NCBI RefSeq assembly: GCF_014903745.1
Contig: NZ_JACVXA010000008.1
Coordinates: 1-64,000, forward strand
Reading direction: 5' to 3'
From: Mangrovicoccus algicola
GTDB lineage: Bacteria > Pseudomonadota > Alphaproteobacteria > Rhodobacterales > Rhodobacteraceae
Length of the DNA: 64,000 bases
In this document: one piece after another, positions 7,503 to 48,857 of the stretch
How positions within the stretch are numbered: position 1 is the first letter of the stretch
Layout: each line of letters starts with the position of its first letter
The notes under the pieces: generated by a model
Told to the model about the DNA's origin: nothing
The model's input: the letters and a program-made list of their open reading frames with translations, nothing else
The model's database searches: none
Program-made: the position numbers and the translations under genes

Positions 7503-7578
7503 AGGGGTATAGCTCAGCTGGTAGAGCGACGGTCTCCAAAACCGTAGGTCGCGGGTTCGAACCCTGCTGCCCCTGCCA
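7503..7578 (+). tRNA. tRNA-Trp (anticodon CCA)
   Basis: A 76-base cloverleaf: acceptor AGGGGTA/TGCCCCT, D arm GCTC...GAGC, anticodon stem ACGGT/ACCGT with loop CTCCAAA (anticodon CCA), T arm with GGTTCGAACC, discriminator G and encoded CCA. In related bacteria this gene directly precedes secE-nusG; here the prophage lies between. The 3' half, from the anticodon loop onward, comes from the phage attachment site and is identical to the displaced copy at attR, so the gene stays functional. Confidence 0.96.
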
Positions 7579-7701: not shown

Positions 7702-8799
7702 TCACAGGCTCCTTGCCAGCTTGTCCAAAAGCCCATCCGCCGCGTCAGGCGACAGGGCCACATAGGTCTCGATCATCTTCGCAGCGTGCTGAATCGACCA
7801 ACCCATGTGCGTGGCGATCTCGCGCAGGCTCGCATCGGCCTCGAACAGCCGGGTGGCCGCCGTGCCGCGCGCATCGTAGAGCCGTGGCCTTTTTGCAACA
7901 TCCTCGGTTTCGCGGATCTTGCATTCATCCCGGCGGCGGCTGACCGCCTGCCCCATGTCGTTCTGGGATTTGTAGGGCTGGCCCCGCCCGTTGAGCAGGA
8001 TCCTGCCTTCGGGCGTGTCGCCGGGGGTCTCGTCCAGGATGGCCTGCATCCGGGGCGTGACCGGGATCGACACGATGCGCTTGCGCTTGGCCGTGCGGAT
8101 CACGATGCGCTGCCCCTTCCCCGTGGCCTGAAAATGGCTCAGGGAGAGCGTGTGCAAATCGCCGGGGCGAAGGCCCGTCTCCGTTGCCGTAATCATCAGG
8201 CGGGCCAGCCAGCGCGGCGCAGGGCCTATGGAGCGCTTGGCGTCGCCGTGCAGGAACAGGTCCAGCTCGGCAGGCGTCCAGATAATGTCGGACCGGTCGG
8301 CAGAGTACAGCTTGGACATGCCCGACAGGTGGTTCGCCTTGATCCAGCTCTTGTCCACCGCCCAATTGACGATGGCCACCAGATGGCCCGCGCGGGTGTC
8401 GGCAACCTTGGCGCTCTCGAAGCGATCGCGCCAGCCGTAGACCACGCGCCGGATCTGCGGCAGGTCGAACATCTCGATCACCGCATCCCCGAACTCGGCG
8501 TCAATCCCGCGCTCGTGGTAAATGCTGACCGAGTAATCCTTCTTGGTGCGTGGGGCCAGGGCCGCATATTCGCGGCTGGCAAGGAAGGCCCGGATCACCT
8601 CGCGGAACCGGCCGCGGGACGCGCTGCGGGTCTCGCACGCCTCCCGGTACGCCTTCCAGTAATCCGGCCCGTTAAGGGCCAGATCATCGGCGGAGGACCA
8701 GAAGCGCGGCCCCCCTCTCCATGCGTAGTGGTAGACCACGCTCGACCCGTCAGCGAGCCGCTTGCTTACGCGGTGAATGCCCTTCGCTGGACGTGTCAT
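7702..8799 (-). CDS. int: Phage integrase, tyrosine recombinase
   Basis: 365 residues. It catalyses site-specific recombination between phage and bacterial att sites. The N-terminal part (to about 150) fits a SAM-like core-binding domain; the catalytic domain follows. Visible active-site residues are R211 (TGLRPGDL), a lysine in TAKRKR (238-240), R311 (LYDARGTAAT), H331 (HMGWS) and the nucleophile Y346 (IETYVAL). The usual first histidine of the HxxR box is a tyrosine here (Y308), which some active recombinases tolerate. It lies next to attL and reads toward it. The upstream small gene overlaps its start by 50 bases, and a strong terminator sits ahead of both. Confidence 0.94.
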   Translation of the reverse strand: MTRPAKGIHRVSKRLADGSSVVYHYAWRGGPRFWSSADDLALNGPDYWKAYREACETRSASRGRFREVIRAFLASREYAALAPRTKKDYSVSIYHERGIDAEFGDAVIEMFDLPQIRRVVYGWRDRFESAKVADTRAGHLVAIVNWAVDKSWIKANHLSGMSKLYSADRSDIIWTPAELDLFLHGDAKRSIGPAPRWLARLMITATETGLRPGDLHTLSLSHFQATGKGQRIVIRTAKRKRIVSIPVTPRMQAILDETPGDTPEGRILLNGRGQPYKSQNDMGQAVSRRRDECKIRETEDVAKRPRLYDARGTAATRLFEADASLREIATHMGWSIQHAAKMIETYVALSPDAADGLLDKLARSL

Positions 8800-11622: not shown

Positions 11623-12933
11623 TCAGCCGCTCGGAGCGGTGTAGGTGTAGATCACGGTGTTCACGCCGGTTCCGGAGGCCCGGAAACTGCCAATGGGCAG
11701 ATCCTTCCAGGCATCATTCCAGCCGTAGCGGTTGCTCTTCGGCGCGGGCAGAAGGCCATGCTCGCGCGCCGTGTAAGGCAGGATTGCTCGCAGCACGCCG
11801 CCGGGCTTGAGGAACTTGATCGCGTGAAGCACGTGCTTGGCATAGTGCTTGCCCGCGAAGGGCGGGTTCATGACCACCGCGTCATAGCGATCGCTGTCCT
11901 TGTCGGGCGCAGGCACCTGAAGGAAGTTGGCCACATGCACGCGATGGCCCTTGGCCCGCGCCTCGGCCGCGCGGCCTGCATGGACCTCGATCCCGAGAAC
12001 CATGGCGCCCGTGGCCCGCATGGCGTCCATGATGTTGCCGGTGCCGCAGGACGGTTCCAGCACCCGACGGCCGGTCATGTCGCCATATTCGCGCATGAGG
12101 GTGTCGATCACAGGCTGCGGGGTCGGGTAGAATTGCAGGTCCTTCGAGACGGCCGTGCCGGTTGCCTTGGCCTTCTCGGCCGCTGCCTCGGGACTGTCCG
12201 CCAGCACCTCGCCGTAATACTCGGCCAGAGCGCGGTTGACGGTCAGCAGGGTCTCGGGCGCGAAATAGACATGCGCGTTGCCGTTCTGGTATTTCTTGCA
12301 CCAGATCCCGTGGATGGCATCCTCGGCCGTCGCGTGCTTGCCCTCGGCCAGCGCGCGCAGATCCTCGAAGCTCGGCTCCGGCTTGGCATCGAGCGCAGCC
12401 ATGGCGCGCAGGATGTCCTGGACCTTCTCCCGGCCGTAGCCGGACCACGTTCCGAAGCCCGAGAGGATCACGCGCTTGGGCAGGCCCTTGACGCCGACCT
12501 TCATCTTGTCATGCGATTTGAAGGCCGGATCCAGGTTGCAGAACACCTCGGCCAGCCCCTTCAGCACGGTGCCGCGGGGATCGGACACGGCATCGCCGAA
12601 TAGCTCGCGGACCTTTTCCAGCGTCAGCGCCGGGGCTTCCGCGATGATCCGGTCTGCCCGCTTGCGGTCATTGGACCCGGCCACGGTGTCGAAGTTCACG
12701 GCTTGGCGCATCTGGGCCCAAGCCGACAGCAACAGCGATTTCTCCATTTCGCGCGGGCCCGGCGCGCTCGGAGCGCGAAGCTCGCCATAATGCCCGCCGA
12801 TGGTTACGGCCATGCTCAGGTCTTTGATGGCCTGCTCGAACCCGGCGTGCACGGAGGCCAGCTTGACGCGCTTGGCCTCGTACTCGTCGATGATGTCGCT
12901 GGGAAGGCGACGGATTGCAACGTGCTGGTTCAA
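11623..12933 (-). CDS. Phage DNA methyltransferase with DUF4942-like N-terminus
   Basis: 436 residues from TTG 12933, which has an AAGGA site 8 bases away; the longer frame to 13200 runs over the zinc-finger gene and is rich in arginine and proline. The N-terminal half resembles DUF4942. The C-terminal half is an AdoMet methyltransferase with motif I RVLEPSCGTGN (about 290-300) and the N6-adenine/N4-cytosine motif NPPF (356-359). It probably methylates phage or host DNA to evade restriction. No partner nuclease is adjacent, so it looks like an orphan. Target sequence unknown. Confidence 0.8.
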   Translation of the reverse strand: MNQHVAIRRLPSDIIDEYEAKRVKLASVHAGFEQAIKDLSMAVTIGGHYGELRAPSAPGPREMEKSLLLSAWAQMRQAVNFDTVAGSNDRKRADRIIAEAPALTLEKVRELFGDAVSDPRGTVLKGLAEVFCNLDPAFKSHDKMKVGVKGLPKRVILSGFGTWSGYGREKVQDILRAMAALDAKPEPSFEDLRALAEGKHATAEDAIHGIWCKKYQNGNAHVYFAPETLLTVNRALAEYYGEVLADSPEAAAEKAKATGTAVSKDLQFYPTPQPVIDTLMREYGDMTGRRVLEPSCGTGNIMDAMRATGAMVLGIEVHAGRAAEARAKGHRVHVANFLQVPAPDKDSDRYDAVVMNPPFAGKHYAKHVLHAIKFLKPGGVLRAILPYTAREHGLLPAPKSNRYGWNDAWKDLPIGSFRASGTGVNTVIYTYTAPSG

Positions 12934-12968
12934 CGCGGCTTTCCTTCTGTGATCGTGGTGTGGGGCGC

Positions 12969-13193
12969 TCAGGCCGCCCAGGGCGGCGTGGGGAGCGTGA
13001 CGCGCAGCGCGGGGGCGTCCGGAGCGGACTTCCACAAGGCGCATCGCTCCGGGTGAACCTGAGCGAGTTCGCGCCCGTGGTCCCCCCGGCACGGCTCCGA
13101 GGTGTCCGATTTGCACACAGGGCACGGCACGCTGAGAGGTGCCGAGGCGTGCGCTTCCCGAAGGTCGCGCAACACATCGCGGGTCTTGGTCAT
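12969..13193 (-). CDS. Small zinc-finger protein
   Basis: 74 residues from ATG 13193 (AAAGGA site upstream); the frame continues to 13277 but without a good start. Cysteines C24, C27 and C35 plus H47 (CPVCKSDTSEPCRGDHG then VHPERC) make a zinc-binding CPxC...PC...H pattern common in small actinobacterial and alphaproteobacterial phage proteins. Likely nucleic-acid binding; the exact role is unknown. It lies 36 bases before the methyltransferase and reads with it. Confidence 0.7.
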   Translation of the reverse strand: MTKTRDVLRDLREAHASAPLSVPCPVCKSDTSEPCRGDHGRELAQVHPERCALWKSAPDAPALRVTLPTPPWAA

Positions 13194-13317
13194 TAGGCAT
13201 CCTTTCGGGGCTGGTCTGTCGCCGCCCTCGATTCCGCGCTGTTCTTTGCCGGGGTGAATCGTCAATTCCGCAATCATGCGGCAGGCTGACGCAGCCTGTA
13301 ATCAGGAGGGACGGGGT

Positions 13318-14960: not shown

Positions 14961-15856
14961 GGGCTTAGGTTCCTTCTAAGCGTTTGGTTTAGGGCGAGGC
15001 GTGGGGTTGCAGCCCCTGCCTTGCCCGTCCTTTATATCCCTCGTTTCCGGTTTCTTATAGTGCGCATTCTGACGCGCGTTTTCTTAGCAGATGGCGTTTC
15101 ATTTCCATCTGCACGGCGATGCATTCTTTTCACGACATAGAAATGACGTGCTTCGCAAAGCCTATGCGAGTGATATGAAAAGCCTTGATCCATTGATGGC
15201 TATATCTCCTGAGCTTGGTTTCCATTCCTCATGAAATACCGTCAGGTTTTGTTTTTTCATTTTTTTATTATTCCCGCCATGCCCTGCATGGCCATGAAAT
15301 CATGCGCGATAGCGCATCTTTCCCGGCCTGCAAGGCGGGCAATCTCATGGCTCGATGGGCTGGCGCATCAAGAGGCTGAGAAGGCTTGTCCATGCCTTGT
15401 CCATAGGCGGAGCTGTTCAGGTGGCGGAGCCTGTGGGCAAGGTGTGGGCAAGCCGGGGTTGATCCTGGGCGAGCCTGTCGATCAGCGCGAGACGCAGATG
15501 CAGAAGGGATCGAAGCCCGAATGGGTGGAGACCCGCAAGGGGCTCCATGCTTGCACGAGAGCCCGGTCGGGCCGGGATCAAGGCACGATGATCTCGGCCC
15601 GATCTGCCCAAATCAGCCAGATCGTTGCAAGAGAGCAACAGGATGGAAGCAGATGAGGCTGTTGCACAATTGCCATATTGCAAGAGCCCAATTCTGGGAG
15701 TGTTCCCTACTACTCCGGGGGGCCGGGGGCATGGCAATGCCACACCATCGCGGGCATCCGCAGGCGCAGGACTGAGCAGAGCAAGTCCGAAGCAAGGATC
15801 GCCCGACTGACCAAAGCCATATCTCCGGTCCCGGCCATTCCTCATGCTTGACGCAC
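14961..15856. promoter_or_regulatory. Prophage control region between the leftward accessory and rightward late genes
   Basis: About 0.9 kb without a convincing large gene, AT-rich from about 15030 to 15300. It holds several inverted repeats: GCAGATGG/CCATCTGC (15087-15112), GCCATGC-CCT-GCATGGC (15276-15292) and ATGCGC-GATA-GCGCAT (15302-15317). This is where promoters and repressor operators for both directions would be expected. I could not assign exact promoters. The right part (15400-15850) is GC-rich and shows no gene I believe. Confidence 0.45.
15032..15193 (-). CDS. Possible 53-residue basic protein in the control region
   Basis: Open from ATG 15193 with an AGGAG 12 bases upstream, longer than ideal. 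The C-terminal half is very basic (TRVRMRTIRNRKRGI), compatible with nucleic-acid binding, but the region is AT-rich and such a frame could arise by chance. It overlaps the inverted repeat at 15087-15112. Confidence 0.28.
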   Translation of the reverse strand: MDQGFSYHSHRLCEARHFYVVKRMHRRADGNETPSAKKTRVRMRTIRNRKRGI

Positions 15857-16381
15857 ATGCGCGGCAAAGATCACGCGCAAGCCATGAAACAGCAGCACAA
15901 ATCCCCCGCCGTCATCGACCAGGCATCGCTCCCGACGCTCGATGAAATCACGCCGATCACCACCGCAAAGGGCGAAACGCTCGATGCTCGACAAAGCCTC
16001 GCATGTACGCTGCGCGCAACAACCGCGCTCAACATCGAGCAGATCGCAGAACAAGCAGGATACTCCGGCAGAGCCGCGTGCTCGCACTTCCTTCGCTCGG
16101 ATAGGGGCAGGATGGGGGTTCAAGCAGCAATCACACTGCACCTCACCGACGCAGGACGCATCGGCTTGCAGACGATGATCGCGCTTGCCCAGACGAGCAA
16201 GTCGGACACGGTAAGGCAGGCAGCAGCAGCAGACTTGATGGACCGTGCGGGCCTCAAGCTGGACCAGCCGGAGCAGCCAGCAGGCGGAGCCGGGCACGCA
16301 GCGCCCAGCATCACGATCAACATCGGTCAGCCTGAACAGCCGGTCACGCTGGATGTCACGCCAGACGAGGCAGGCAACTAG
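15857..16381 (+). CDS. terS: Probable terminase small subunit
   Basis: About 174 residues from ATG 15857; TTG 15848 and ATG 15884 are other possible starts, none with a good ribosome site. A helix-turn-helix near residues 60-80 (NIEQIAEQAGYSGRAACSHF) and the later DTVRQAAAADLMDRAGLKL segment match phage small terminases, which bind pac or cos DNA and recruit the large subunit. It is the first rightward late gene. Unusually, about 3.5 kb of cargo genes separate it from the large subunit at 19898. Confidence 0.6.
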   Translation: MRGKDHAQAMKQQHKSPAVIDQASLPTLDEITPITTAKGETLDARQSLACTLRATTALNIEQIAEQAGYSGRAACSHFLRSDRGRMGVQAAITLHLTDAGRIGLQTMIALAQTSKSDTVRQAAAADLMDRAGLKLDQPEQPAGGAGHAAPSITINIGQPEQPVTLDVTPDEAGN

Positions 16382-16500
16382 TACAGCAGAGCAGAATTGC
16401 TTGAGAACACAGGCAGGGGGGGGCGGGGCAAAAACGAAGTTAGGCTCGCCTAGTGACCCCAGTCCGGCGTATAAAATGCGGGAAACATAGGATCGTTTGC

Positions 16501-16785
16501 ATGCCGGACCTACACATCATCATCACAGGAAACTTCGGGGAGAGCTTGCGCCTGATAAATTCGGATATCATCAGCCTGGATGACGATGGCTTGGGTGGCC
16601 AGCTGATGCGAGCAGGCACAGCACAACGCTTCAGACTAATGTCGGTGGACCTCCCAGAGCATCTGACAGACATTGCTCTATCCAGCTTCGAGGTTCATCC
16701 TAGCTCACATCGAAATCCTGTAAGCCTCGTACGCTGCATCGCCATCTGCGAAGCACTGGAAGCGTCGAATGGCCGACCTGCTTGA
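16501..16785 (+). CDS. Hypothetical protein, 94 residues
   Basis: ATG 16501 has AGGA 9 bases upstream. The frame extends upstream to 16453 without a site. Product begins MPDLHIIITGNFGESLRLIN and ends near LVRCIAICEALEASNGRPA. Not recognised. It opens the lower-GC segment between the terminase subunits. It may be a small globular protein; the opposite frames are equally open here, so coding is only moderately sure. Confidence 0.45.
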   Translation: MPDLHIIITGNFGESLRLINSDIISLDDDGLGGQLMRAGTAQRFRLMSVDLPEHLTDIALSSFEVHPSSHRNPVSLVRCIAICEALEASNGRPA

Positions 16786-16975
16786 CGCCACCCGAACCTC
16801 TCATCCAAGGTCAACAAGGCACCTTAGCCTTGGGAGTGTGAATGGGCCGAACCTAGAGAACCAACCTCTTGATAATTTTTAAGCAAGCGCCCAGAACCCA
16901 CCGTCAGAACTAGGATCGCGGAAAAACATCTTCAACTGAAGACATTCCGCCCTCTAAAGAAAACCTAAGGCCACC

Positions 16976-18004
16976 ATGAAATCATTCACCGCTTGGAGCG
17001 AAACTGGAAAATCGAGAGCGCGGCAAGTAAGATCCTATCTTCTTCGCAGAACCCCCTTGGGTGGACCGACAGGAAAACTCGACACACTCATTCTTCATAT
17101 TGGCAGCCCCAAAACGGCCACTTCCACATTTCAAGACTGGCTAGGGGAAAACCGCTGGACCTTGCGCAGAGACGGCGTGGATCTGCGAATCCCATCCGAC
17201 ATTCGCGGCAAAAGCTACATCGCATCCGCGATGGAATATATAAATGGAAAAGAACAGGATATTGATACCTCGGGCTTCTCCAGGTTGTTCGAATCCGTTT
17301 CGACGAGAAACCTACTTGTGAGCGAAGAATCGCTGACGAACACATTCATTCCCGGCCCCAAGAGAAACCGGAACGGGTTTGACTCGATTGATAGGTTGAT
17401 AAAGTTCATTGAGGCACTGGAGACTCCAAACAAGAAAATTTTGTTGACTGTCAGGAGGCAAGATAAGTTCTTAGCTTCGAGTTATGCGCATCGCCTTCAA
17501 AGATCAGGAGAGACGGCTGCATTCTCTGGCTGGACGAGAGCCAAAGTCGACTTCAGAAAACTCTCATGGCTTCGAGTTGTAGACAAGCTAGAATCGGCCT
17601 TTGGAGAAGAGAATGTATCCGTCGTTCCCTTTGAGATGATTCAAACTACTAATTTCAGGGCATACTATGAAAGATCCCTTTCGTCGTTGAACATTTCAAC
17701 CCAGAACCATACCGAACCCACTGATCCGATTAAGAACCCGTCACTCACTGAGGTTTCGGAGGAGATTGCAAGAATAATAAATAGGCTGCCAACTAAAGAC
17801 GTTGCGCAAAAGTCTAAACGAACCGGCGTAATCGAACGGATTAATAATTTCACTTATGCAATCGGCGACCGCACGTCGAGGCCTGACAACGGTGAAGTAG
17901 CCCAAGCGTGTCAAGCTTACTATCAGTCCGAGAACATTGAACTAGCAAAACGAAAGTTCCCGGACCTGAAGACCTCATTCACATTCGAAAAATTAAGTAG
18001 ATAA
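16976..18004 (+). CDS. Sulfotransferase-like protein 1 (phage cargo gene)
   Basis: 342 residues. The N-terminal part carries the 5'-phosphosulfate-binding loop, LILHIGSPKTATSTFQDWL (motif about 43-53), matching PKTGTT-type loops of PAPS-dependent sulfotransferases. ILLTVRRQDKFLASSYAH (about 155-172) matches the 3'-phosphate-binding arginine/serine segment. These enzymes move sulfate from PAPS to carbohydrates, lipids or proteins. Codons are richer in A and T than in neighbouring phage genes, pointing to separate acquisition. It lies between the terminase genes with a second, distinct sulfotransferase-like gene, suggesting modification of host surface glycans during lysogeny. Substrate unknown. 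Confidence 0.75.
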   Translation: MKSFTAWSETGKSRARQVRSYLLRRTPLGGPTGKLDTLILHIGSPKTATSTFQDWLGENRWTLRRDGVDLRIPSDIRGKSYIASAMEYINGKEQDIDTSGFSRLFESVSTRNLLVSEESLTNTFIPGPKRNRNGFDSIDRLIKFIEALETPNKKILLTVRRQDKFLASSYAHRLQRSGETAAFSGWTRAKVDFRKLSWLRVVDKLESAFGEENVSVVPFEMIQTTNFRAYYERSLSSLNISTQNHTEPTDPIKNPSLTEVSEEIARIINRLPTKDVAQKSKRTGVIERINNFTYAIGDRTSRPDNGEVAQACQAYYQSENIELAKRKFPDLKTSFTFEKLSR

Positions 18005-18077
18005 CCCACACCGATTGCATGAGTGTCCAGAAGAAGGTTAGCGCACCATATGAAGAAATTCAGATCGGAGCAATCTC

Positions 18078-18452
18078 ATGACCTTCTTCCAAAAGCCTGC
18101 GTTAAAATATCTGGAAGGTGAAAGAAATCACACTTCAGGAAATCCGATCAACTCCAACCTTCGTGGTGACAGAGTAGCTCCACCCTCTACGGCTTCTCCG
18201 CCACCAAGAGAAATATCCGCGCGGGAGTTCGGCCTTTCAAACCAATACATACTAAGAGTTGAACCCAACGGCGCCCTATTCAAAATCGGAACAGGATGGT
18301 TCGACTTGCACGGGTTTTGGTGCGTTGAACGAAATGGGCGAGTAGAGGTTCGACGTGGCGCAACGAAGAAATTAATGAGAAAACTAACTCCGATGCAACG
18401 GCACGAGCTGGCTCGTGTGAGACTAAACGCACGGAGAAACGGCTTGCGTTAG
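18078..18452 (+). CDS. Hypothetical protein between two sulfotransferase-like genes
   Basis: 124 residues; ATG 18078 has GGAG 7 bases upstream. The first 60 residues are low-complexity (SNLRGDRVAPPSTASPPPRE). The rest looks folded: YILRVEPNGALFKIGTGWFD, then a basic helical end (KKLMRKLTPMQRHELARVRL). Not recognised. The position within the cargo island suggests a shared role or simply co-acquisition. Confidence 0.6.
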   Translation: MTFFQKPALKYLEGERNHTSGNPINSNLRGDRVAPPSTASPPPREISAREFGLSNQYILRVEPNGALFKIGTGWFDLHGFWCVERNGRVEVRRGATKKLMRKLTPMQRHELARVRLNARRNGLR

Positions 18453-18544
18453 TGTGTATTGGTGCGATAGGCCCTAAACTGTAGTGTGCTTGCTGCCACT
18501 GACAGCCAACTTTTCTGTTCCTTATAAGATCAACGCTGCCTCTT

Positions 18545-19210
18545 ATGGATTCACCATCTCCTACGCTATCACTTTACGACAACGCAGAATCCCGAAACAG
18601 CGCCGAGCAGACATATGTTATTTTTGGCGGGCGCCGCGGAGGGACTACTGCTATCGCAGGTGTGTGCCAACGCCTCGGCCTTTTCTTAGGGGACGACCTG
18701 GGAATCAACCTCGAAGATCTAGACTTCCGCCATTCGCGCGGCAAACAAGCGATCCTTCGATCCATCGAGCAACGAAACAAGGATCGTGGCATCTGGGGTT
18801 GGAAGCATCCTGTTCCCCACGCATATCTCTCCAAAATCACACCCCAGCTACGAAATCCGCGTTTTATCTTGGTAACACGCGACACTACAGCACACGCCTC
18901 AGGTATGCTTGAGCGGGAAAATCGTGACGTAGAAGAAAGCCTCAGAATCCACATAAGAAACGAAAGAAACAATTTCGATTTCATTTTCAAACAGGAACTC
19001 CCCACACTGCTGGTAAGTTATGAGAAGTTAATATCAAAACCAAATGATGTAATTCGAGATACTTCACACTTTCTTAACAGAAAGTTAACCAGACAAAAGC
19101 TTAGAGAAATTAAGAAGTTTATACATCCGGGGTATTACGAACCTGTAAGTAGAATAGAAAAGGCTAAGAACGCGATAAGTCAGGTACTTGGAACATCCTC
19201 TTCAGAATAA
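18545..19210 (+). CDS. Sulfotransferase-like protein 2 (phage cargo gene)
   Basis: 221 residues. YVIFGGRRGGTTAIAGVCQR (about 24-43) is a GGxRxGTT phosphosulfate-binding loop, WGWKHP follows near 84, FILVTRDTTAHASGM (107-121) fits the second PAPS-binding segment, and TLLVSYEKLISKP matches the end of the fold. It is only distantly like protein 1, so this is not a recent duplication. The start has no strong ribosome site. Low-GC codon use continues. It probably modifies a sugar or lipid at the cell envelope. Confidence 0.7.
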   Translation: MDSPSPTLSLYDNAESRNSAEQTYVIFGGRRGGTTAIAGVCQRLGLFLGDDLGINLEDLDFRHSRGKQAILRSIEQRNKDRGIWGWKHPVPHAYLSKITPQLRNPRFILVTRDTTAHASGMLERENRDVEESLRIHIRNERNNFDFIFKQELPTLLVSYEKLISKPNDVIRDTSHFLNRKLTRQKLREIKKFIHPGYYEPVSRIEKAKNAISQVLGTSSSE

Positions 19211-19543: not shown

Positions 19544-19747
19544 ATGATGAAGCGCCCTGAGCATCTCGAACACATGGAATCTCCGGACATGTTCGACGAC
19601 GAGTATCATGACGATGTGGTGCAGTACCGGGAACCATCCGATGAGCCAGAGTGGCAAGATGACGAATACCATGACGGCAGCGATGAACTGAGAACTTCTA
19701 TTTTCTCCAAGATACTATCGGCCTTTCAGTTCAAGCGTCTTGGCTAG
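19544..19747 (+). CDS. Very acidic small protein, 67 residues
   Basis: MMKRPEHLEHMESPDMFDDE, then alternating D/E/Y/H residues including two DDEYHD repeats, ending in a basic-hydrophobic tail (IFSKILSAFQFKRLG). The central 40 residues are strongly negative, similar in composition to DNA-mimic anti-restriction proteins, but composition alone is weak evidence. The amphipathic tail might contact a membrane or partner. No strong ribosome site; start at 19544 or the next codon. Confidence 0.5.
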   Translation: MMKRPEHLEHMESPDMFDDEYHDDVVQYREPSDEPEWQDDEYHDGSDELRTSIFSKILSAFQFKRLG

Positions 19748-19897: not shown

Positions 19898-21481
19898 ATG
19901 ACAATCAACTACACCGCCGACGGCCGGGTGATGGGCGACTTCTTCCGCTCGCCTGCCTTCGTGCGCGGGCTGCAAGGCCCCATCGGCTCAGGCAAGTCCG
20001 TCGCCTGCGTGATGGAGTGCCTGCGCCTCATGCTGTCGCAGGAGCCTTGCTTCGACCCTGCCACGGTGCGGGAGGTCGAGCGCGGCGTCTTCGACGGCCA
20101 GCGCACCGGCAAGCGCCGCTGCCGCATCGGGATCATCCGCAACACTACCCCGCAGCTTGAGACCACGACCATGAAGACGTGGCTCGAATGGCTTCCCGAG
20201 CATCTGTATGGCCGGGTGCGCTGGCGCGCGCCGTACCGGCAGGACATCCACATCACCATGCCTGACGGCTTCGACGTGGAAGCCGAGGTCTGGTTCCTCG
20301 CCCTGGATCGGCCCGAGGACGTGAAGAAGCTGCTCTCCTTCGAGTTCACCTTCATCTGGCTCAACGAGGCGCGCGAGCTTCCCCGCGAGATCATCACCGC
20401 GGCAATCTCCCGCGTGAAGCGCTTCCCGCGCCTGATCGACGGCGGCTGCACCCGCGCCTGCATCATCATGGACACCAACGCGCCCGACGAGGAACACTGG
20501 TGGGCCATCATGTCGGGCCAGGTCGATGCGCCGGACTGGCTGTCCGAAGAGGATCGCCTGACGCTGCTCAAGCCCGACGATTGGGAGTTCTTCGCCCAGC
20601 CGCCTGCGGTTCTCGATGTCTGGAAGAACGGCAAGCTGGATGGCTACGAGCTGAACCCCCACCGCGAGAACGGCCGGTTCACCGACAAGACCTATTACAT
20701 GGGGCTGATCCAGGGGCAGACCCGCGACTGGATCATGAACATGCTTCAGAACAAGGTCGGCCGGATCTTCGCCGGGCGCCCGGTCTATTCGGGCTTCAAC
20801 GAGCTGACGCATCTGGTCGACGACATCGAGCCGGATCCGGAATACGTGATCGACGTGGGCGCCGACTTCGGCCTGACCCCGGCCGCGGCCTTCGGGCAGG
20901 ACGTGCGCGGACAGGTGCGCGTCTTCGACGAGGTGGTGACGCGCGACACCCAGACGGAGCAATTCGCAATCCTGCTCGCACGGCACATCCGCGAGAAGTA
21001 TCCGGGCTACCGCTTCCGCTTCACGGGCGACCCGCGCGGCGATGACCGCCAGCCCAACCAGCAGGACGCGGCCTATACCGCCTTCAAGATCCTCAAGAAG
21101 CACGGGATCGACATCGAGCCCGCCTGGTCGAACGATCCGGTGATCCGAACCGGCGCGGTGCAGACCCAGCTCAACACGATGGTCGAGGGCCGGCCCGGCT
21201 ATATCCTGAGCCGCAAGTGCACGTACCTGATGAACGCCAAGAAGGGCGGGTACTGCTACCTCAAGGACGGGCACGCGATCGACAAGAACTCGATCTACAG
21301 CCACGTCTCGGATGCCGAGCAATACATGTTCCTGCGCATGGGCTACGGGCGCAAGCTGATCCGCTCCGAGGGCGGCCAGCGCGCTGTCTCGGTGCAGGCC
21401 GGGACCGGCGGGAATGTCCATCGCCACAGGCAGGGCGCCCGCGCCCGGCGCACCTCCCGCATCCTCAGCATTGGCCGTTGA
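19898..21481 (+). CDS. terL: Terminase large subunit
   Basis: 527 residues; ATG 19898 follows GGAGGG. It is the ATP-driven DNA-packaging motor with headful or cos nuclease. Walker A is GPIGSGKS (27-34); Walker B is TFIWLNEARE (151-160) with E157 as the catalytic glutamate and an asparagine in place of the usual aspartate. The RNase H-like nuclease begins at DVGADFG (D319), followed by FTGDPRGDDR and a late DAEQY segment, giving three acidic positions. The last 35 residues are basic and may be a tail. It heads the T7-like structural operon. Confidence 0.93.
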   Translation: MTINYTADGRVMGDFFRSPAFVRGLQGPIGSGKSVACVMECLRLMLSQEPCFDPATVREVERGVFDGQRTGKRRCRIGIIRNTTPQLETTTMKTWLEWLPEHLYGRVRWRAPYRQDIHITMPDGFDVEAEVWFLALDRPEDVKKLLSFEFTFIWLNEARELPREIITAAISRVKRFPRLIDGGCTRACIIMDTNAPDEEHWWAIMSGQVDAPDWLSEEDRLTLLKPDDWEFFAQPPAVLDVWKNGKLDGYELNPHRENGRFTDKTYYMGLIQGQTRDWIMNMLQNKVGRIFAGRPVYSGFNELTHLVDDIEPDPEYVIDVGADFGLTPAAAFGQDVRGQVRVFDEVVTRDTQTEQFAILLARHIREKYPGYRFRFTGDPRGDDRQPNQQDAAYTAFKILKKHGIDIEPAWSNDPVIRTGAVQTQLNTMVEGRPGYILSRKCTYLMNAKKGGYCYLKDGHAIDKNSIYSHVSDAEQYMFLRMGYGRKLIRSEGGQRAVSVQAGTGGNVHRHRQGARARRTSRILSIGR

Positions 21482-21526: not shown

Positions 21527-21805
21527 ATGTGCGGCGGAGCAATCAAGAGCGTATCGAAGGCGGTCAAGGGCGCCGTTGACACCGTGACCGGGGCCAGCGC
21601 GCGCCGGGCGCAGAAGAAAGCGGCCAAGGAGGCCAAGCAAGCGGCGCAGGCTCAGGCCCGGCAGGCCAAGGAGCAGCGCACGCAGGAGGCCTCGGCCGCC
21701 TATGCCGAGCGCCGCCGGACGATGGGCACGAATGCCCGCTCCGGCTCGCGCACCTCCTACAGCGCCTATTCGGGCGGCATGGGATCGCGGAGCTTCTTCC
21801 AGTGA
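21527..21805 (+). CDS. Small virion-associated hypothetical protein
   Basis: 92 residues starting MCGGAIKSVSKAVKGAVD, a long Ala/Gln/Lys helix, and a C-terminus GGMGSRSFFQ. The MC start and SFF end resemble the gp14-like protein at 28884 (MCDV...RSFFHAGA), so the two may share targeting or processing signals. Its stop overlaps the portal start as GTGA. Probably an internal or connector component; not proven. Confidence 0.6.
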   Translation: MCGGAIKSVSKAVKGAVDTVTGASARRAQKKAAKEAKQAAQAQARQAKEQRTQEASAAYAERRRTMGTNARSGSRTSYSAYSGGMGSRSFFQ

Positions 21806-23352
21806 GGGATGCAGGCGATATCCTGAAGCGCATGGACAAGGCGCAGGCCGAGCGCTCGCGCCTCGAACCCATGTTCGACGATGCTATCCGGCTGACCATG
21901 CCGGGGCGGCGCGGCTTCAACATGACCGATTGGGACCCGGCCTGGGCCGACATCTACGACGAGACCGGCGCCAACGCGGTGGAGGAATTTGCCAGCCGGA
22001 TGCAGGCCGGATTCTTCCCCAGCTTCTCGCGGTTCATCCAGCTTGAGGCGTCGAGCCTGATCGCCCCGAAGGACCGGGCGGCGGTGAACCGTGACCTTGA
22101 GGAAATCTGCCAGTATCTGTTCGAGGAAATCTGGGTCTCCAACTTCGCCACCGAGGCGGCCGAAAGCCTGACGGACCTTGCGCTGTCGACCGGCACGCTC
22201 TGCGTGGAGGAAGGCTTCGGCGGCAACCGGCTGCACCACCAGTCGATCCCGCTGACGGAGCTTCTGCTTGAGACCGGCCCCGCGGGCCAGATCGGCGGGC
22301 AGTTCCGTGAACAGCGCGACGTGCCGGTGACGGACGTGCCCGCCATCCTGGGCCAGCATTACGACGACAGCGCGGCCCCGGTGCTGGCGGCAGACATCCG
22401 CCAGAACGTGGATCGCAAGGTCACGCTGGTGACGCACACCTATCGCGACTTCACCAGCCGCGACACCGAGCGCAGCTGGCATATCGTGCTGGTCAAGGAG
22501 ACGAAGGAGATCGTCTGCAAGCGCGAGTTGACCGGGCGCGGCTCCAATCCGTTCCTCAGTTTCCGCATGGGCAAGATCGAAGGCGGCACCTGGGGGCGCG
22601 GCCCGCTGATGCGCAGCCTCGGCGCGGTGCGCACCACGAACCTGATGGTGGAGCTGGTGCTGGAAAACGCGGCCATGGCCATCACCGGGATCTACCAGAC
22701 CGATAATGACGGCACGGTCAACGCCGACAATATCAGCCTGTTGCCGGGCACGATCCTGTCGCGCGAGATCGGGACGCGCGGGCTTGAGCCGATCGCGGCC
22801 GCGACGGGCAGCTTCCAGATGCAGGATGTGGTGCTTGGCGATCAGCGCACGAACATCAAGCGCGCGATGTACAACGATATGCTGTCGGATCCCAACCGGA
22901 CCCCGGCGACCGCCTACGAGGTCTCCGAGCGCATGGCCGATCTGGCCCACCGCACCGCGGCGGGCTTCTCGCGCATCTTCTACGAGTTCGTCCAGCCCTA
23001 CATCTGGCGGGCGCTCTACCTGCTCGAAAAGCGCGGCGACATCCAGCTTCCCACCCAGAACGGGCGGGCGCTGAACTTCCGGCCCACCTCCCCGCTGGCG
23101 CGAGCGCAGTCCGGCCGCGACCTTCAGGCGCTCATTCAGGACTTCTCGCTGCGCGCGCAGATCTACGGCCCGCAGGCGGCGGCCATGTCCTACGAGACCG
23201 AGGAACTGGAAACCTGGCTCCAAGCCCGCAACGGGCTGGATGAGCGGATCTTCAAGACGCCCGCCGACATGGCGCGCTCGATGCAGGAGATGCAGCAGCA
23301 GATGATGCAGATGCAGGCCCAGATGCAGCAGATGGGGGCGACCGGCAAATGA
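21802..23352 (+). CDS. Portal (head-tail connector) protein
   Basis: 516 residues from GTG 21802, coupled to the previous stop. The sequence fits the podovirus head-to-tail connecting family (T7 gp8-like): RLTMPGRRGFN, ANAVEEFASRMQAGFFPSFS, and a C-terminal Met/Gln-rich coil (MQQQMMQMQAQMQQM). The dodecameric portal forms the packaging vertex. Position directly after terL agrees. The methionine/glutamine tail is unusually regular and probably forms the barrel helix. Confidence 0.9.
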   Translation: MRDAGDILKRMDKAQAERSRLEPMFDDAIRLTMPGRRGFNMTDWDPAWADIYDETGANAVEEFASRMQAGFFPSFSRFIQLEASSLIAPKDRAAVNRDLEEICQYLFEEIWVSNFATEAAESLTDLALSTGTLCVEEGFGGNRLHHQSIPLTELLLETGPAGQIGGQFREQRDVPVTDVPAILGQHYDDSAAPVLAADIRQNVDRKVTLVTHTYRDFTSRDTERSWHIVLVKETKEIVCKRELTGRGSNPFLSFRMGKIEGGTWGRGPLMRSLGAVRTTNLMVELVLENAAMAITGIYQTDNDGTVNADNISLLPGTILSREIGTRGLEPIAAATGSFQMQDVVLGDQRTNIKRAMYNDMLSDPNRTPATAYEVSERMADLAHRTAAGFSRIFYEFVQPYIWRALYLLEKRGDIQLPTQNGRALNFRPTSPLARAQSGRDLQALIQDFSLRAQIYGPQAAAMSYETEELETWLQARNGLDERIFKTPADMARSMQEMQQQMMQMQAQMQQMGATGK

Positions 23353-41115: not shown

Positions 41116-41150
41116 CCCCGCCGGAGTGATCCGGCGGGGTTACTCTTTCC
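41116..41150 (+). terminator. Bidirectional terminator at the end of the late operon
   Basis: Perfect 10-bp stem CCCCGCCGGA/TCCGGCGGGG with a GTGA loop, then TTACTCTTTCC on the right and A-rich DNA (GAAAAACG) on the left, which reads as T on the minus strand. It separates late genes from the opposing right arm. Confidence 0.75.
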
Positions 41151-41391
41151 GGTCTCGCCCATGGGAAAGGGCACAAGCTTCCGCAATACCGTTGCGAGGA
41201 GAGTTCCCGGGCCCAAGCAGCGGATCGCAGCCCTATCGCAACATCCGCGCCATTGGTAACGTCACGTTAGGCACCCACAGGAGGGGCGGGGAAGCCTACT
41301 TCCGATACGTGCGCACATTGATCGAAGCCAGCCTGCCGTAGTGGTCCTTGACCACCAAATTTGCCCGGGACCTTGTTCCATGCGGAGGGGA

Positions 41392-42489
41392 TCAATCACT
41401 AACGCTTATCCAGCCACGAATGCTGGCGATATTTCGCCGCCAAGCATCTTCGAAAGTTACCCGCTCAATAGAGTTCTGCCCTGGAAACTCGAATTTTTGG
41501 ATTTTTACCCTCATCATCTCAACGTGAAAATCACCAACACTGGACGGCGACGGAACCAAAAAGACAGATCCAGTTAGAGAAACCACTTCTTCGCCGCGCT
41601 CAATTTCAGCGCCTATGAATTGATCCCTATATGTCCCTATGACTGCAACTTCCCTGTCGCGATAGTCAAAAATCATGAAGTCTCCTTCCCTGGAAGCGGC
41701 CCGGTTCCCCGCCCAGTTTCCGAGCAAGTTCACAGAAGCAAAAACCGCCACAGCCACAACGAAGAAACTGCCATAGCGGCTATCAACACCCACAGGCCCA
41801 AGAAACCACGAGCGGACTTCACGATCTTGATCCATTGACTCTTGAACAATGTCCCGCCAAAGAGTGCCGCTTCGCATCCTCCTGCGAAGCGCAATCCCAT
41901 TCCAGCCCCCCACGATTAGGAGATAAAAAACTATGGCTTGCGAGATGTAAGAAAACCCTGTAAGCGCCATTGAAAACATTAACAATACCAATGGAAATAA
42001 AACATGTGGGGAAACAAAACTATAATCCGCGAGTATTTCTAGAGCTCGCATAGGAAATGCGTATACAGTATTATATATCATGATGGAGAGTAGCGCCACG
42101 CCGCCTGCAGCCACGATAATTTTCGACACCTCAAGATCGACAAATACCTCGTCGACACCAAAGTATCTCAAATAAGACGATTGGAACTCATAGGTCAAAT
42201 AATAGCCAATACCCGTGATTAAGGCGATAAGAGCTGCCTCTTTCCCTACGATTTCTGAAAGTGAGTACGGAATGAAGCCGGGTGGCTGTTCCTGCTTTTT
42301 ATTCTGGGCATCCAGATCGTTTTCTTGCCGCACGGAAATATATCCTCTCAATTCACTGTTTAAGCGACATTCCCAAAATGGTATGTTGCTCGAAGACAAG
42401 ATCTCTTGGCTGGGCAAGTGGTTCAAGTCTTTTCCCTGTCGATTACAGGCGGCGACGAAAGCGCCAAGAGTTGCGGGGGATTCGTCCAC
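41392..42489 (-). CDS. Five-helix membrane protein (cargo gene at the end of the right arm)
   Basis: 365 residues from GTG 42489 with GGAGG only about 3 bases upstream. A 75-residue soluble N-terminus precedes five predicted membrane helices at about 84-104, 121-143, 160-182, 185-201 and 240-260, then a soluble C-terminal domain of about 100 residues with beta character (VAVIGTYRDQFIGAEIERGE). Codons are more AT-rich than adjacent phage genes. I do not recognise the family. Its gene is read leftward, 450 bases after the helicase. Position and codon bias suggest a moron, perhaps for superinfection exclusion or defence, without direct evidence. Confidence 0.7.
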   Translation of the reverse strand: MDESPATLGAFVAACNRQGKDLNHLPSQEILSSSNIPFWECRLNSELRGYISVRQENDLDAQNKKQEQPPGFIPYSLSEIVGKEAALIALITGIGYYLTYEFQSSYLRYFGVDEVFVDLEVSKIIVAAGGVALLSIMIYNTVYAFPMRALEILADYSFVSPHVLFPLVLLMFSMALTGFSYISQAIVFYLLIVGGWNGIALRRRMRSGTLWRDIVQESMDQDREVRSWFLGPVGVDSRYGSFFVVAVAVFASVNLLGNWAGNRAASREGDFMIFDYRDREVAVIGTYRDQFIGAEIERGEEVVSLTGSVFLVPSPSSVGDFHVEMMRVKIQKFEFPGQNSIERVTFEDAWRRNIASIRGWISVSD

Positions 42490-42941
42490 CTGCCTCCAAG
42501 ATATCAGCCTTGCGGCAACCCTTGTCAGCGCGGTGGATCTTCTTGTCTTGCCGCTCTTTTTGAGTTCAGGCTTGGATAGCTGTGATCCGCATACTGCTGG
42601 CGCTCGAAGGCAGCGAATGGTCGTGACTTAACCGTCGCTGTAGCATCCATAATAGGAGCAATCCGCCACTCAGCCTTGCACCTCTATAAAGCGCCAAGAA
42701 CAAATGCTTTGGTGGTGCCAAGCACCTGGATTTCGCGCTAAAGGCGACTGTCCGGAAATCTGGCTGCAATCGCAGCATTCAAAGACAGCGCTGAGAGCCC
42801 GATGATGGCCGGAAGCGTTAGTGGGCGACGGGCGTCCGAGAGGCTGAAAACTGCGCCCAGCAGACCGTCGCGATTGCGCACGTCCCTGGGGTGCTGTATA
42901 TACCTCCCTCCACCTTCCTCTCCGGTGGCAACCGGAGGCAT
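42490..42941. other. Gap between helicase and membrane-protein genes
   Basis: 450 bases without a convincing gene. Just after the helicase stop is a hairpin CTCCGGT-GGCA-ACCGGAG (42920-42937) with no T-run. Short open frames here have neither good starts nor protein-like composition. The membrane-protein promoter is expected here but I cannot place it. Confidence 0.4.
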
Positions 42942-44087
42942 CTAATCCGCCACCAACGTAAGGCGTTTCTGTGCGCGGGTGACTGCGGTATAGAGCCAGC
43001 GGTGGGCGTCATCGCGGAACAGGTCGCTCTCATCGTAGACGATGACGTGCCGCCACTGGCTGCCCTGAGCCTTGTGGCAGGTCATCGCGTAGCCGTAATC
43101 GAACTGCTGGCTGTGCTTGAGGTCTTTCCAGTGCAGGTCCTCGGCCCCGCCAAGAAAGAACTCCTGGCGCACGGAGGTGATGAAGGCCCCGCGCTTGGCG
43201 TTGTCGTCGTCGACCAGCTTCATGCGGAACTTGTTCGAGCCGCGCTTGCGGTGCAGCATTTCGCGCACGCTGAACAAGCCGCCGTTGAAGATCCCCATGC
43301 TCTTGTCATTCTTCAGGCAAAGGAGCCTGTCGCCGATCTCCGGGGCGGGACCGGAGCGGCCCAGCGTGCGCCGGATCCGTTTGTTGAAGCCGTTGCGCAG
43401 GGTGTGGGTGCCAACGATCACCTGATCCGCCTGCACCACCTCCTGCGCGGTCAGCGTGCCGCGCGGAACCATGCGCACCGCGCCGCCGCGATCCCATGTC
43501 TGCGGCACGTCACCTTGCCGGATCATGGTGGCCAGGGCGATGATCGGGTTGCCCTCGGCCTGCCGGTGGATCTCGGTCAGCATCGCATCCGGGTCGGCCT
43601 CGGTGAAATAGCCCGCGCTCGACACGGGCGGAAGCTGCGCGGGATCGCCCAGCACGAGGACCGGCCTGCCGAAAGAAAGGATGTCCTTGGCCAGTTCTTC
43701 GCCGACCATGGAGCATTCGTCGATCACGATGAGCGAGGCGCCCACGCAATCGCTCTCCTTGTTGATGACATAGGTGACAGACCCATCCTTGCCGTCGACC
43801 GGCTGGTAGATCGTCGAGTGGATCGTCGCGGCGCCGTGGCATCCGGAGCGGCGCATTTGCAGCGCGGCCTTGCCGGTGAAGGCCATGAACACGACATGCC
43901 CCCGGCACGCCGCGGCGATGGTTTTGGCGATCGTCGTCTTGCCGGTTCCGGCATAGCCGAACAGCCGGAAAATCTGCGGGCGGCGTTCCTCGGGGGTGGC
44001 CAGCCAATCCATCACGCTTTCGAGCGCGACAACCTGGCCGGGGGAATAGTTCTGGGTCTGGGGGGAAAGCAGGGCTGCGCCGTCCAT
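42942..44087 (-). CDS. RecD/Dda-like superfamily 1 DNA helicase
   Basis: 381 residues. Walker A GYAGTGKT (44-51), Walker B VIDECSM (121-127), motif III GDPAQLPPV (147-155), and a C-terminal UvrD_C_2-type motif TCHKAQGSQW (near 335-345). It unwinds DNA during phage replication or recombination, like T4 Dda. ATG 44087 has AGGTAAG upstream. It reads leftward with ssb and the recombination genes, and is the last conserved gene of that operon. Confidence 0.92.
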   Translation of the reverse strand: MDGAALLSPQTQNYSPGQVVALESVMDWLATPEERRPQIFRLFGYAGTGKTTIAKTIAAACRGHVVFMAFTGKAALQMRRSGCHGAATIHSTIYQPVDGKDGSVTYVINKESDCVGASLIVIDECSMVGEELAKDILSFGRPVLVLGDPAQLPPVSSAGYFTEADPDAMLTEIHRQAEGNPIIALATMIRQGDVPQTWDRGGAVRMVPRGTLTAQEVVQADQVIVGTHTLRNGFNKRIRRTLGRSGPAPEIGDRLLCLKNDKSMGIFNGGLFSVREMLHRKRGSNKFRMKLVDDDNAKRGAFITSVRQEFFLGGAEDLHWKDLKHSQQFDYGYAMTCHKAQGSQWRHVIVYDESDLFRDDAHRWLYTAVTRAQKRLTLVAD

Positions 44088-48761: not shown

Positions 48762-48809
48762 CTCCAAAACCGTAGGTCGCGGGTTCGAACCCTGCTGCCC
48801 CTGCCACTT
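48762..48809 (+). repeat. attR, displaced tRNA-Trp 3' part
   Basis: Identical for 48 bases to 7534-7581: the anticodon loop onward, TTCGAACC T arm and CCA. Left of it ACGGA replaces ACGGT, so the phage side keeps the anticodon-stem symmetry around the core. It is not a functional tRNA because the 5' half is missing. A CGGTTTACA copy (48667-48675) and an inverted TGTAAGCC (48683-48690) nearby may be arm sites. Confidence 0.95.
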
Positions 48810-48857
48810 TCCAGACGCAGACCGACGACACCCGCAACGCGGCATGCGGCGCGGGGC

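Follow-up and report, generated by a model that had tools for sequence, protein, structure and literature searches.

A putative sulfotransferase cassette between the terminase genes of a podovirus-type prophage in Mangrovicoccus algicola

We found two enzyme genes in a prophage of Mangrovicoccus algicola: a predicted sulfotransferase, ST2 (18545–19210, forward strand, 221 residues), and a second, sulfotransferase-like protein, ST1 (16976–18004, forward strand, 342 residues), both lying between the genes for the small and the large terminase subunit, terS and terL. The window, by which we mean the whole stretch of 64,000 nucleotides that was analysed, is part of a contig of 103,958 bp in a genome of 4.39 Mb. 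Together with two small genes, o110 (16453–16785) and o67 (19544–19747, both on the forward strand), the enzymes may form a moron cassette arranged around a core phage gene, o124 (18078–18452, forward strand, 124 residues), in a temperate podovirus whose terS-terL gap is a hot spot. The two enzymes would transfer sulfate from host-made 3'-phosphoadenosine-5'-phosphosulfate (PAPS) to a host molecule, the likeliest acceptor being a surface polysaccharide or a lipid-linked glycan, and this sulfation could alter phage adsorption or the chemistry of the lysogen's surface. Related prophages would swap the cassette en bloc, in the manner of serotype-conversion modules. We favour such a swappable lysogenic-conversion cassette tentatively, as a possibility that falls a little short of probable, and we infer its enzymatic activity, substrate, expression, effect on adsorption and the selection for its retention.

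Two predicted sulfotransferases

The initial annotation had read PAPS-binding loops in both open reading frames (ORFs), and both loops are present, GSPKTATSTF in ST1 and GGRRGGTTAI in ST2. The window copy of ST2 scores 18.6 bits against a Pfam cut-off of 22 and thus stays below it, but its homologue in the related genome of strain HB161398 exceeds the cut-offs for Sulfotransfer_3 (PF13469, 2.2e-6) and Sulfotransfer_1 (PF00685, 8.4e-6), and the homologue in a second relative, genome G199, exceeds that for Sulfotransfer_1. The basic residue and the G-T pair of the 5'-phosphosulfate-binding loop are invariant (R31, G33, T34). An AlphaFold model built from five sequences (predicted local distance difference test, pLDDT, 73.2; predicted template modelling score 0.73) retrieved tyrosylprotein and cytosolic sulfotransferases first in Foldseek (E 2e-6), with tyrosylprotein sulfotransferase (TPST) heading the list. 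The best 50 of 114 matches (E up to 0.001) were all sulfotransferases or proteins of the same fold, including retinol dehydratase, which we take to share the sulfotransferase fold. VIA-align superposed 193 residues of the model on TPST1 (Z 13.1, 4.3 A); several of the best matches share this Z value, so that the fold does not name the substrate. The assignment of ST2 made initially is thereby borne out, with a homologue above the Pfam cut-offs and a model resembling solved sulfotransferases, and we regard ST2 as firmly assigned to the sulfotransferases by its predicted fold. Its proposed second motif is present in the window as R112-x6-S119, but the serine is not conserved, being replaced by alanine in HB161398 and G199. 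A PHROGs profile search with ST2 gave no match, an NCBIfam search with ten proteins gave none either, and a marginal PADLOC match of ST2 to the CARF_HEPN model (0.0023) was taken as chance.

ST1 is the more distant protein, for which neither a Pfam search with ST1 alone, nor one with a set of ST1-like proteins (A6, the 10 of 19 ST1-like family loci with a clean frame), nor PHROGs, nor PADLOC, which was also negative for o110, returned a match. A profile widened to ten relatives (A7), however, matches the sulfotransferase 3rnl_A at E 1.7e-7, whereas weaker profiles reached 3rnl or a known sulfotransferase only at E 0.07 (A3, six members) and E 0.62 (A6). Among ten aligned ST1-like proteins the putative PAPS-site residues are largely kept, K46 in nine and R160 and S168 in all ten. 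The second motif that had been noted in ST1 therefore stands as far as its invariant arginine and serine are concerned, and not in its spacing, which is R160-x7-S168; R-x7-S is the canonical spacing of the 3'-phosphate-binding (3'-PB) motif. The model of ST1, predicted from the single sequence, has a pLDDT of 34.9. The widened profile and the conserved residues support membership of ST1 in the PAPS-dependent sulfotransferase superfamily. As had been stated initially, ST1 and ST2 are not close copies of each other, and they show no relation even at profile level (hhalign probability 0.1%).

A cassette that differs between sister prophages

Four genomes of the GTDB genus were compared, that of the window included. 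One of them, G198, was taken to be Poseidonocella sp. HB161398 (NCBI taxonomy places Poseidonocella in Roseobacteraceae), and its prophage (contig NZ_VATA01000041.1) sits at the same tRNA-Trp gene as that of the window. The two prophages are 80% identical in terS (15848–16381, forward strand; phrog_2538, 5.1e-6) and 90% in terL (19898–21481, forward strand; phrog_2, 2.8e-18), compared with 61% in ST2, 57% in o124, 52% in o110 and 37% in o67. In HB161398 the gap lacks ST1 and holds instead a 218-residue ORF, a reverse-strand glycosyltransferase (PF13704, 3.6e-7) and a 371-residue Sulfotransfer_2 protein (4.9e-9).

In bins of 60 columns, nucleotide identity of the two prophages is 0.73–0.95 in terS from 15870 to 16349, falls to 0.53, 0.75, 0.60 and 0.53 and then to 0.2–0.67 up to 16990, and returns to 0.82–0.97 from 19906 in terL, the last partial bin excepted. 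The proportion of synonymous differences (pS) rises from 0.34–0.37 in terS and terL to 0.85–0.88 in ST2 and o124, where the proportion of nonsynonymous differences (pN) is 0.27–0.29. A pS that doubles at the border, combined with this pN, fits an en-bloc replacement of a constrained cassette between related prophages. Presence or exchange of cargo at a fixed site among related phages is characteristic of morons; the different cassettes of these two sister prophages show it and support the insertion hot spot proposed initially.

Two premises of that proposal did not hold. The terminase genes, which had been assumed to be normally adjacent, usually lie apart in this lineage: among 117 sequences (window included, some duplicates), in which terS and terL were called by profiles, both genes were found in 72, and the gap, whose median is 1303 bp, was shorter than 300 bp in 11 and at least 3 kb in five (the window, HB161398 twice, L149 and L154). 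The 124-residue protein between ST1 and ST2, described initially as unknown, is the product of a core phage gene, since o124 stands upstream of terL in every row whose terL is at least 59% identical and whose contig reaches upstream (26 in all, counting the window and some duplicates). The lower GC of the codons is real in that GC content at third positions (GC3) is 0.44–0.60 in the gap genes, 0.72 in terS and 0.85–0.91 in the five downstream genes measured; on its own it is no sign of cargo, because the core gene o124 is low as well. Recent foreign origin, as an explanation of the low GC, was dropped for the same reason and because GC3 in the HB161398 cassette is largely high (0.84–0.87 in ST2, o124, o67 and the Sulfotransfer_2 gene; 0.49–0.54 in a membrane ORF and the glycosyltransferase).

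Within the survey the enzymes are rare. Profiles of ST1 and ST2 run on the ORFs of the 117 sequences matched only the window and HB161398, which is listed twice. Gap ORFs of at least 70 residues, taken where both terminase genes were seen, numbered 151 and were reduced to 84 representatives; a Pfam scan of 80 of these gave sulfotransferase families with one member each, fitting the HB161398 proteins, while four minus-strand representatives were left out (L044:2909-3181, L044:4107-4328, L044:5765-6001 and L143:6711-6926). With the own genome counted, terL has relatives in two genomes of 198 in the family, two of the four in the genus and nine of 390 in the order; at eight of these loci, five of which are distant terminases, no match to ST1 or ST2 was found in the stretch examined near terL.

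Apparent retention outside a prophage and possible functions

The cassette recurs in G199 outside a recognisable prophage. An 18.2-kb contig of this genome keeps the gene order of the window, with identities of 57% for o110, 63% for ST1, 43% for o124, 58% for ST2 and 45% for o67, so that o110 accompanies the cassette in all three genomes that carry it (window, HB161398 and G199). A search of the G199 genome for terL found no match, terS is absent from the contig (the rest of the genome was not searched for it), and the tRNA-Trp site holds no prophage. The frames of o110, ST1, ST2 and o67 are open. The o124 copy lacks an ATG at its start, its first in-frame ATG lying deep inside with TTG and GTG codons upstream, and it retains only 17 of the 28 residues that are invariant in six phage copies, whereas in a leave-one-out comparison every one of the six retains 28 of 28–32. 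Its alignment score is 161, compared with 357 for the HB161398 protein on the window DNA. By these signs the o124 of this one draft genome looks like a degenerating phage gene amid retained enzymes, and open ST1 and ST2 frames beside it in a genome without terL suggest a host-level trait. Directly downstream of the ST1-ST2-o67 block, G199 (contig C319) also encodes a sulfatase with RTX repeats (L179 767-3724; PF00884, 2.2e-39).

Sulfation of a surface glycan appears the likeliest activity because relatives of ST2 lie near glycan-like genes and the HB161398 gap contains a glycosyltransferase. In the genus, ST2 relatives adjoin a glycosyltransferase-like gene, and in genomes G126 and G246 they lie in glycan- or export-like clusters (neighbours were named by eye from translations, except for one Stf0 match); other ST2 relatives are solitary, for instance amid genes for ribosomal proteins. 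A gene for adenosine 5'-phosphosulfate (APS) kinase, which would supply PAPS, is present in all four genus genomes. Lysogenic conversion, the function suggested initially, gains indirect support from the cassette swap and from the open enzymes beside a degenerate-looking o124 in G199, and sulfation of a surface glycan is made plausible by the glycosyltransferase- and export-like neighbours.

Several observations weigh against this interpretation. The o124 frame of G199 is free of stops and the window protein aligns to it without a frameshift, whereas the HB161398 protein needs two; because of this open frame, and because the pN/pS of G199 o124 (0.47) is near that of o67 (0.42–0.51) and o110 (0.39–0.43), selective retention of the enzymes is something that we infer. 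Since o124 diverges along with the cassette, a core gene is part of what was exchanged. ST2 does not keep the 3'-PB serine, most of the relatives found for both enzymes lie outside this prophage lineage, and the sample consists of two prophages and one remnant, all from one genus. APS kinase is common, with genes in 11 of 14 control genomes. The cassette is moreover co-oriented with the late genes, and an independent cassette promoter is unsupported, given that consensus sites are not in excess (one sigma-70-like promoter, none standing out, against a mean of 3.0 in shuffles).

The same orientation, with no promoter seen, would suit enzymes that act in the lytic phase, on virion glycans or on the surface of the dying cell, where they could serve superinfection exclusion or release, and not in the lysogen. 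Viral contigs L189 (4599-12569) and L190 (3254-10414) carry ST2 relatives amid methyltransferase-, sugar-enzyme- and glycosyltransferase-like genes (by eye), which is compatible with such a role. The open cargo of G199, in a genome without terL and next to an o124 that looks degenerate, favours a role outside the lytic cycle, and we consider a lytic function unlikely.

Tyrosine sulfation by TPST favours an acidic context, and the small o67 protein carries the acidic repeats DDEYHDDV and DDEYHDG. ST2 might accordingly be a tyrosylprotein sulfotransferase with the adjacent o67 as its substrate, a phage-borne counterpart of the RaxST/RaxX pair whose sulfated o67 would act in the lysogen or on neighbouring cells and which, in G199, would have persisted in the host genome after loss of the recognisable phage. 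In all three close members of the ST2 clade (window, HB161398 and G199) o67 follows ST2, and DDEYHDDV is invariant in the three proteins although in this comparison the protein is only 39–45% identical to that of the window. Of 230 window ORFs, o67 alone has two acidic-tyrosine sites (a criterion set after o67 had been seen), DDE.HD was found in no other gene in a six-frame search of 222 overlapping records (2.1 Mb), and TPST tops the Foldseek list for the ST2 model. The Z-scores of TPST, however, equal those of other sulfotransferases, and the second repeat keeps DDE-x-HD while its tyrosine changes to phenylalanine or isoleucine, so that the motif may be based on D, E and H and serve metal or protein binding. 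ST2 does not conserve the 3'-PB serine, which the excerpted text of PMC6637879 describes as essential, also for RaxST. None of the cassette genes was recognised as a secretion gene, a 48% ST2 relative in genome G007 has no o67 seen beside it, and the pN/pS of o67 is not low. Clear matches to the o67 profile were confined to G000 and G199 among 394 genomes, a sample in which HB161398 is apparently not included, and to HB161398 in IMG/VR; two further rows at E 0.003–0.006 were taken as chance. The protein may thus be a TPST-type substrate or carry a D/E/H-based binding motif; we regard the modification pair as improbable to a considerable degree, and its persistence in G199 as equally so.

That the genes are mere passengers, shuffled by recombination with no role for phage or lysogen, would accord with the abundance of sulfotransferase-like genes in the family (76 of its 198 genomes contain relatives of ST1) and with the only moderately low pN/pS of o67 and o110, but this too seems very doubtful to us in view of a pN/pS of 0.26–0.33 for ST1 and ST2 (pS being almost saturated), an identical order of the shared genes at three places and the open frames beside a degenerate-looking neighbour.

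A lysogenic-conversion cassette of the favoured kind would resemble prophage serotype conversion, such as glucosylation of O-antigen by gtr modules, in which surface-glycan morons are exchanged between related prophages. It would differ from gtr in chemistry (sulfation, not glucosylation or acetylation), in the absence of a recognised flippase and in its site between the terminase genes. Phage sulfotransferases as such are not new: excerpts of PMC12285232 and PMC11309003 present them as auxiliary genes, and the available text of PMC10580990 describes PF13469 sulfotransferases in two metagenomic genomes of OM43 phages, akin to one in Synechococcus phage S-SRM01, and calls their function unclear. 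The initial statement that no phage system of this kind is well described thus needs qualification as regards the genes, and agrees with that source as regards their function. Likeness to the OM43-phage and S-SRM01 genes lies in the occurrence of sulfotransferase genes in marine phages, whereas in the present case the two enzymes are unrelated to each other, sit in an integrated prophage and belong to a terS-terL cassette that varies from one sister prophage to the other. A Burkholderia prophage moron labelled 'PAPS reductase/sulfotransferase' in the part of PMC2920897 at hand is likewise a sulfur-related moron varying between prophages, but the similarly labelled gene of Burkholderia phage CSP3 is, in the accessible description of PMC10269572, a CysH-type PAPS reductase and no sulfotransferase of the present fold; these were compared by description only. 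RaxST/RaxX of Xanthomonas, the closest pair of enzyme and peptide, according to the excerpt of PMC6637879 places a sulfotransferase beside a small tyrosine-containing protein and draws PAPS from host assimilation; the present genes are phage-borne, have no recognised raxA- or raxB-like neighbours, encode an acidic repeat motif and do not conserve the 3'-PB serine. Among the literature matches listed we found no description of this sulfotransferase cassette and none of a phage protein-sulfation pair. With a complete-looking prophage, a sequenced and named relative in the genus (Poseidonocella sp. HB161398), a choice of two cassettes at a single locus and a genome in which the enzymes remain although terL is missing, the setting allows a test: glycan sulfation, if true, would add a chemistry to phage-driven surface variation, and sulfation of o67 would constitute a phage protein-sulfation pair.

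Prophage anatomy and relatives elsewhere

The prophage looks intact and podovirus-type. It is bounded by a tRNA-Trp(cca) gene (7503–7578, forward strand; ARAGORN), whose 3' part forms the attachment (att) repeat, and by attR (48762–48806, forward strand), found by repeat comparison; the repeat is exact over at least 39 bp (7534–7572 and 48762–48800). Next to the tRNA lies a tyrosine integrase (7702–8799, reverse strand; PF00589, 5.5e-9; phrog_1, 1.4e-28), and terL is followed by the head-tail connector or portal (21802–23352, forward strand; PF12236, 9.3e-59). Further prophage genes encode a major head protein, an internal virion protein, a T7-type tail fibre and an amidase. A Pfam search with the o110 protein gave no family.

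At E 0.001, with the own genome counted, ST1 has relatives in the 76 family genomes mentioned above, many of them matched over no more than 200 N-terminal residues, and ST2 in 8 of 198; at E 1e-10 ST2 relatives occur in 13 of 394 genomes. Identities in other family genomes are about 22–63% for ST1-like and 26–58% for ST2-like proteins, and the loci look mostly chromosomal. Among 14 genus loci tested, a match to o110, o124 or o67 at E 0.01 was obtained only in the G199 block and at the HB161398 prophage locus. No direct relatives of ST1 were found in IMG/VR, and none of either enzyme in GenBank phages; for ST2 a first IMG/VR scan confirmed none, and a profile scan gave four loci, one of them HB161398.

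Some of these relatives have distinctive neighbours. In two other genera, ST2-like genes (L234 4522-5232 and L235 7852-8565) are apparently inserted in a ribosomal-protein cluster (rplD, rplW and rpsC by eye), and a third (L237 7712-8365) adjoins a SulP-like sulfate permease, again by eye. In L180 (359-2323 and 7745-9884), HB161398 carries a tandem pair of ST1-like genes with high GC3 and, nearby, a low-GC pair, one member being a PF13704 glycosyltransferase and the other resembling ST1 weakly by BLAST and having no Pfam match. An ST1-like host gene also stands directly 3' of the tRNA-Trp/att site in HB161398 (L161 14822-15661) and in G199 (L187 8385-9254). Genome G200 has about 0.9 kb at the position downstream of this site, and the stretch beside attR in the window (48811–48852) is too short for such a gene.

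Three minor features complete the picture. A second low-GC stretch of the window (41126–42951) has no counterpart in a DNA comparison with HB161398 and contains a reverse-strand ORF of 365 residues (41392–42489) that had no match in Pfam, PHROGs or PADLOC. In L059 (6990-9491) the terL ORF is 833 residues long and has, after about residue 39, an insertion that starts CLAGDAVVLTENG and is intein-like by eye. On the reverse strand of the window, 11623–13200 encodes a protein with DUF4942 and a methyltransferase, to which PADLOC adds matches to mad2 and MTase_II.

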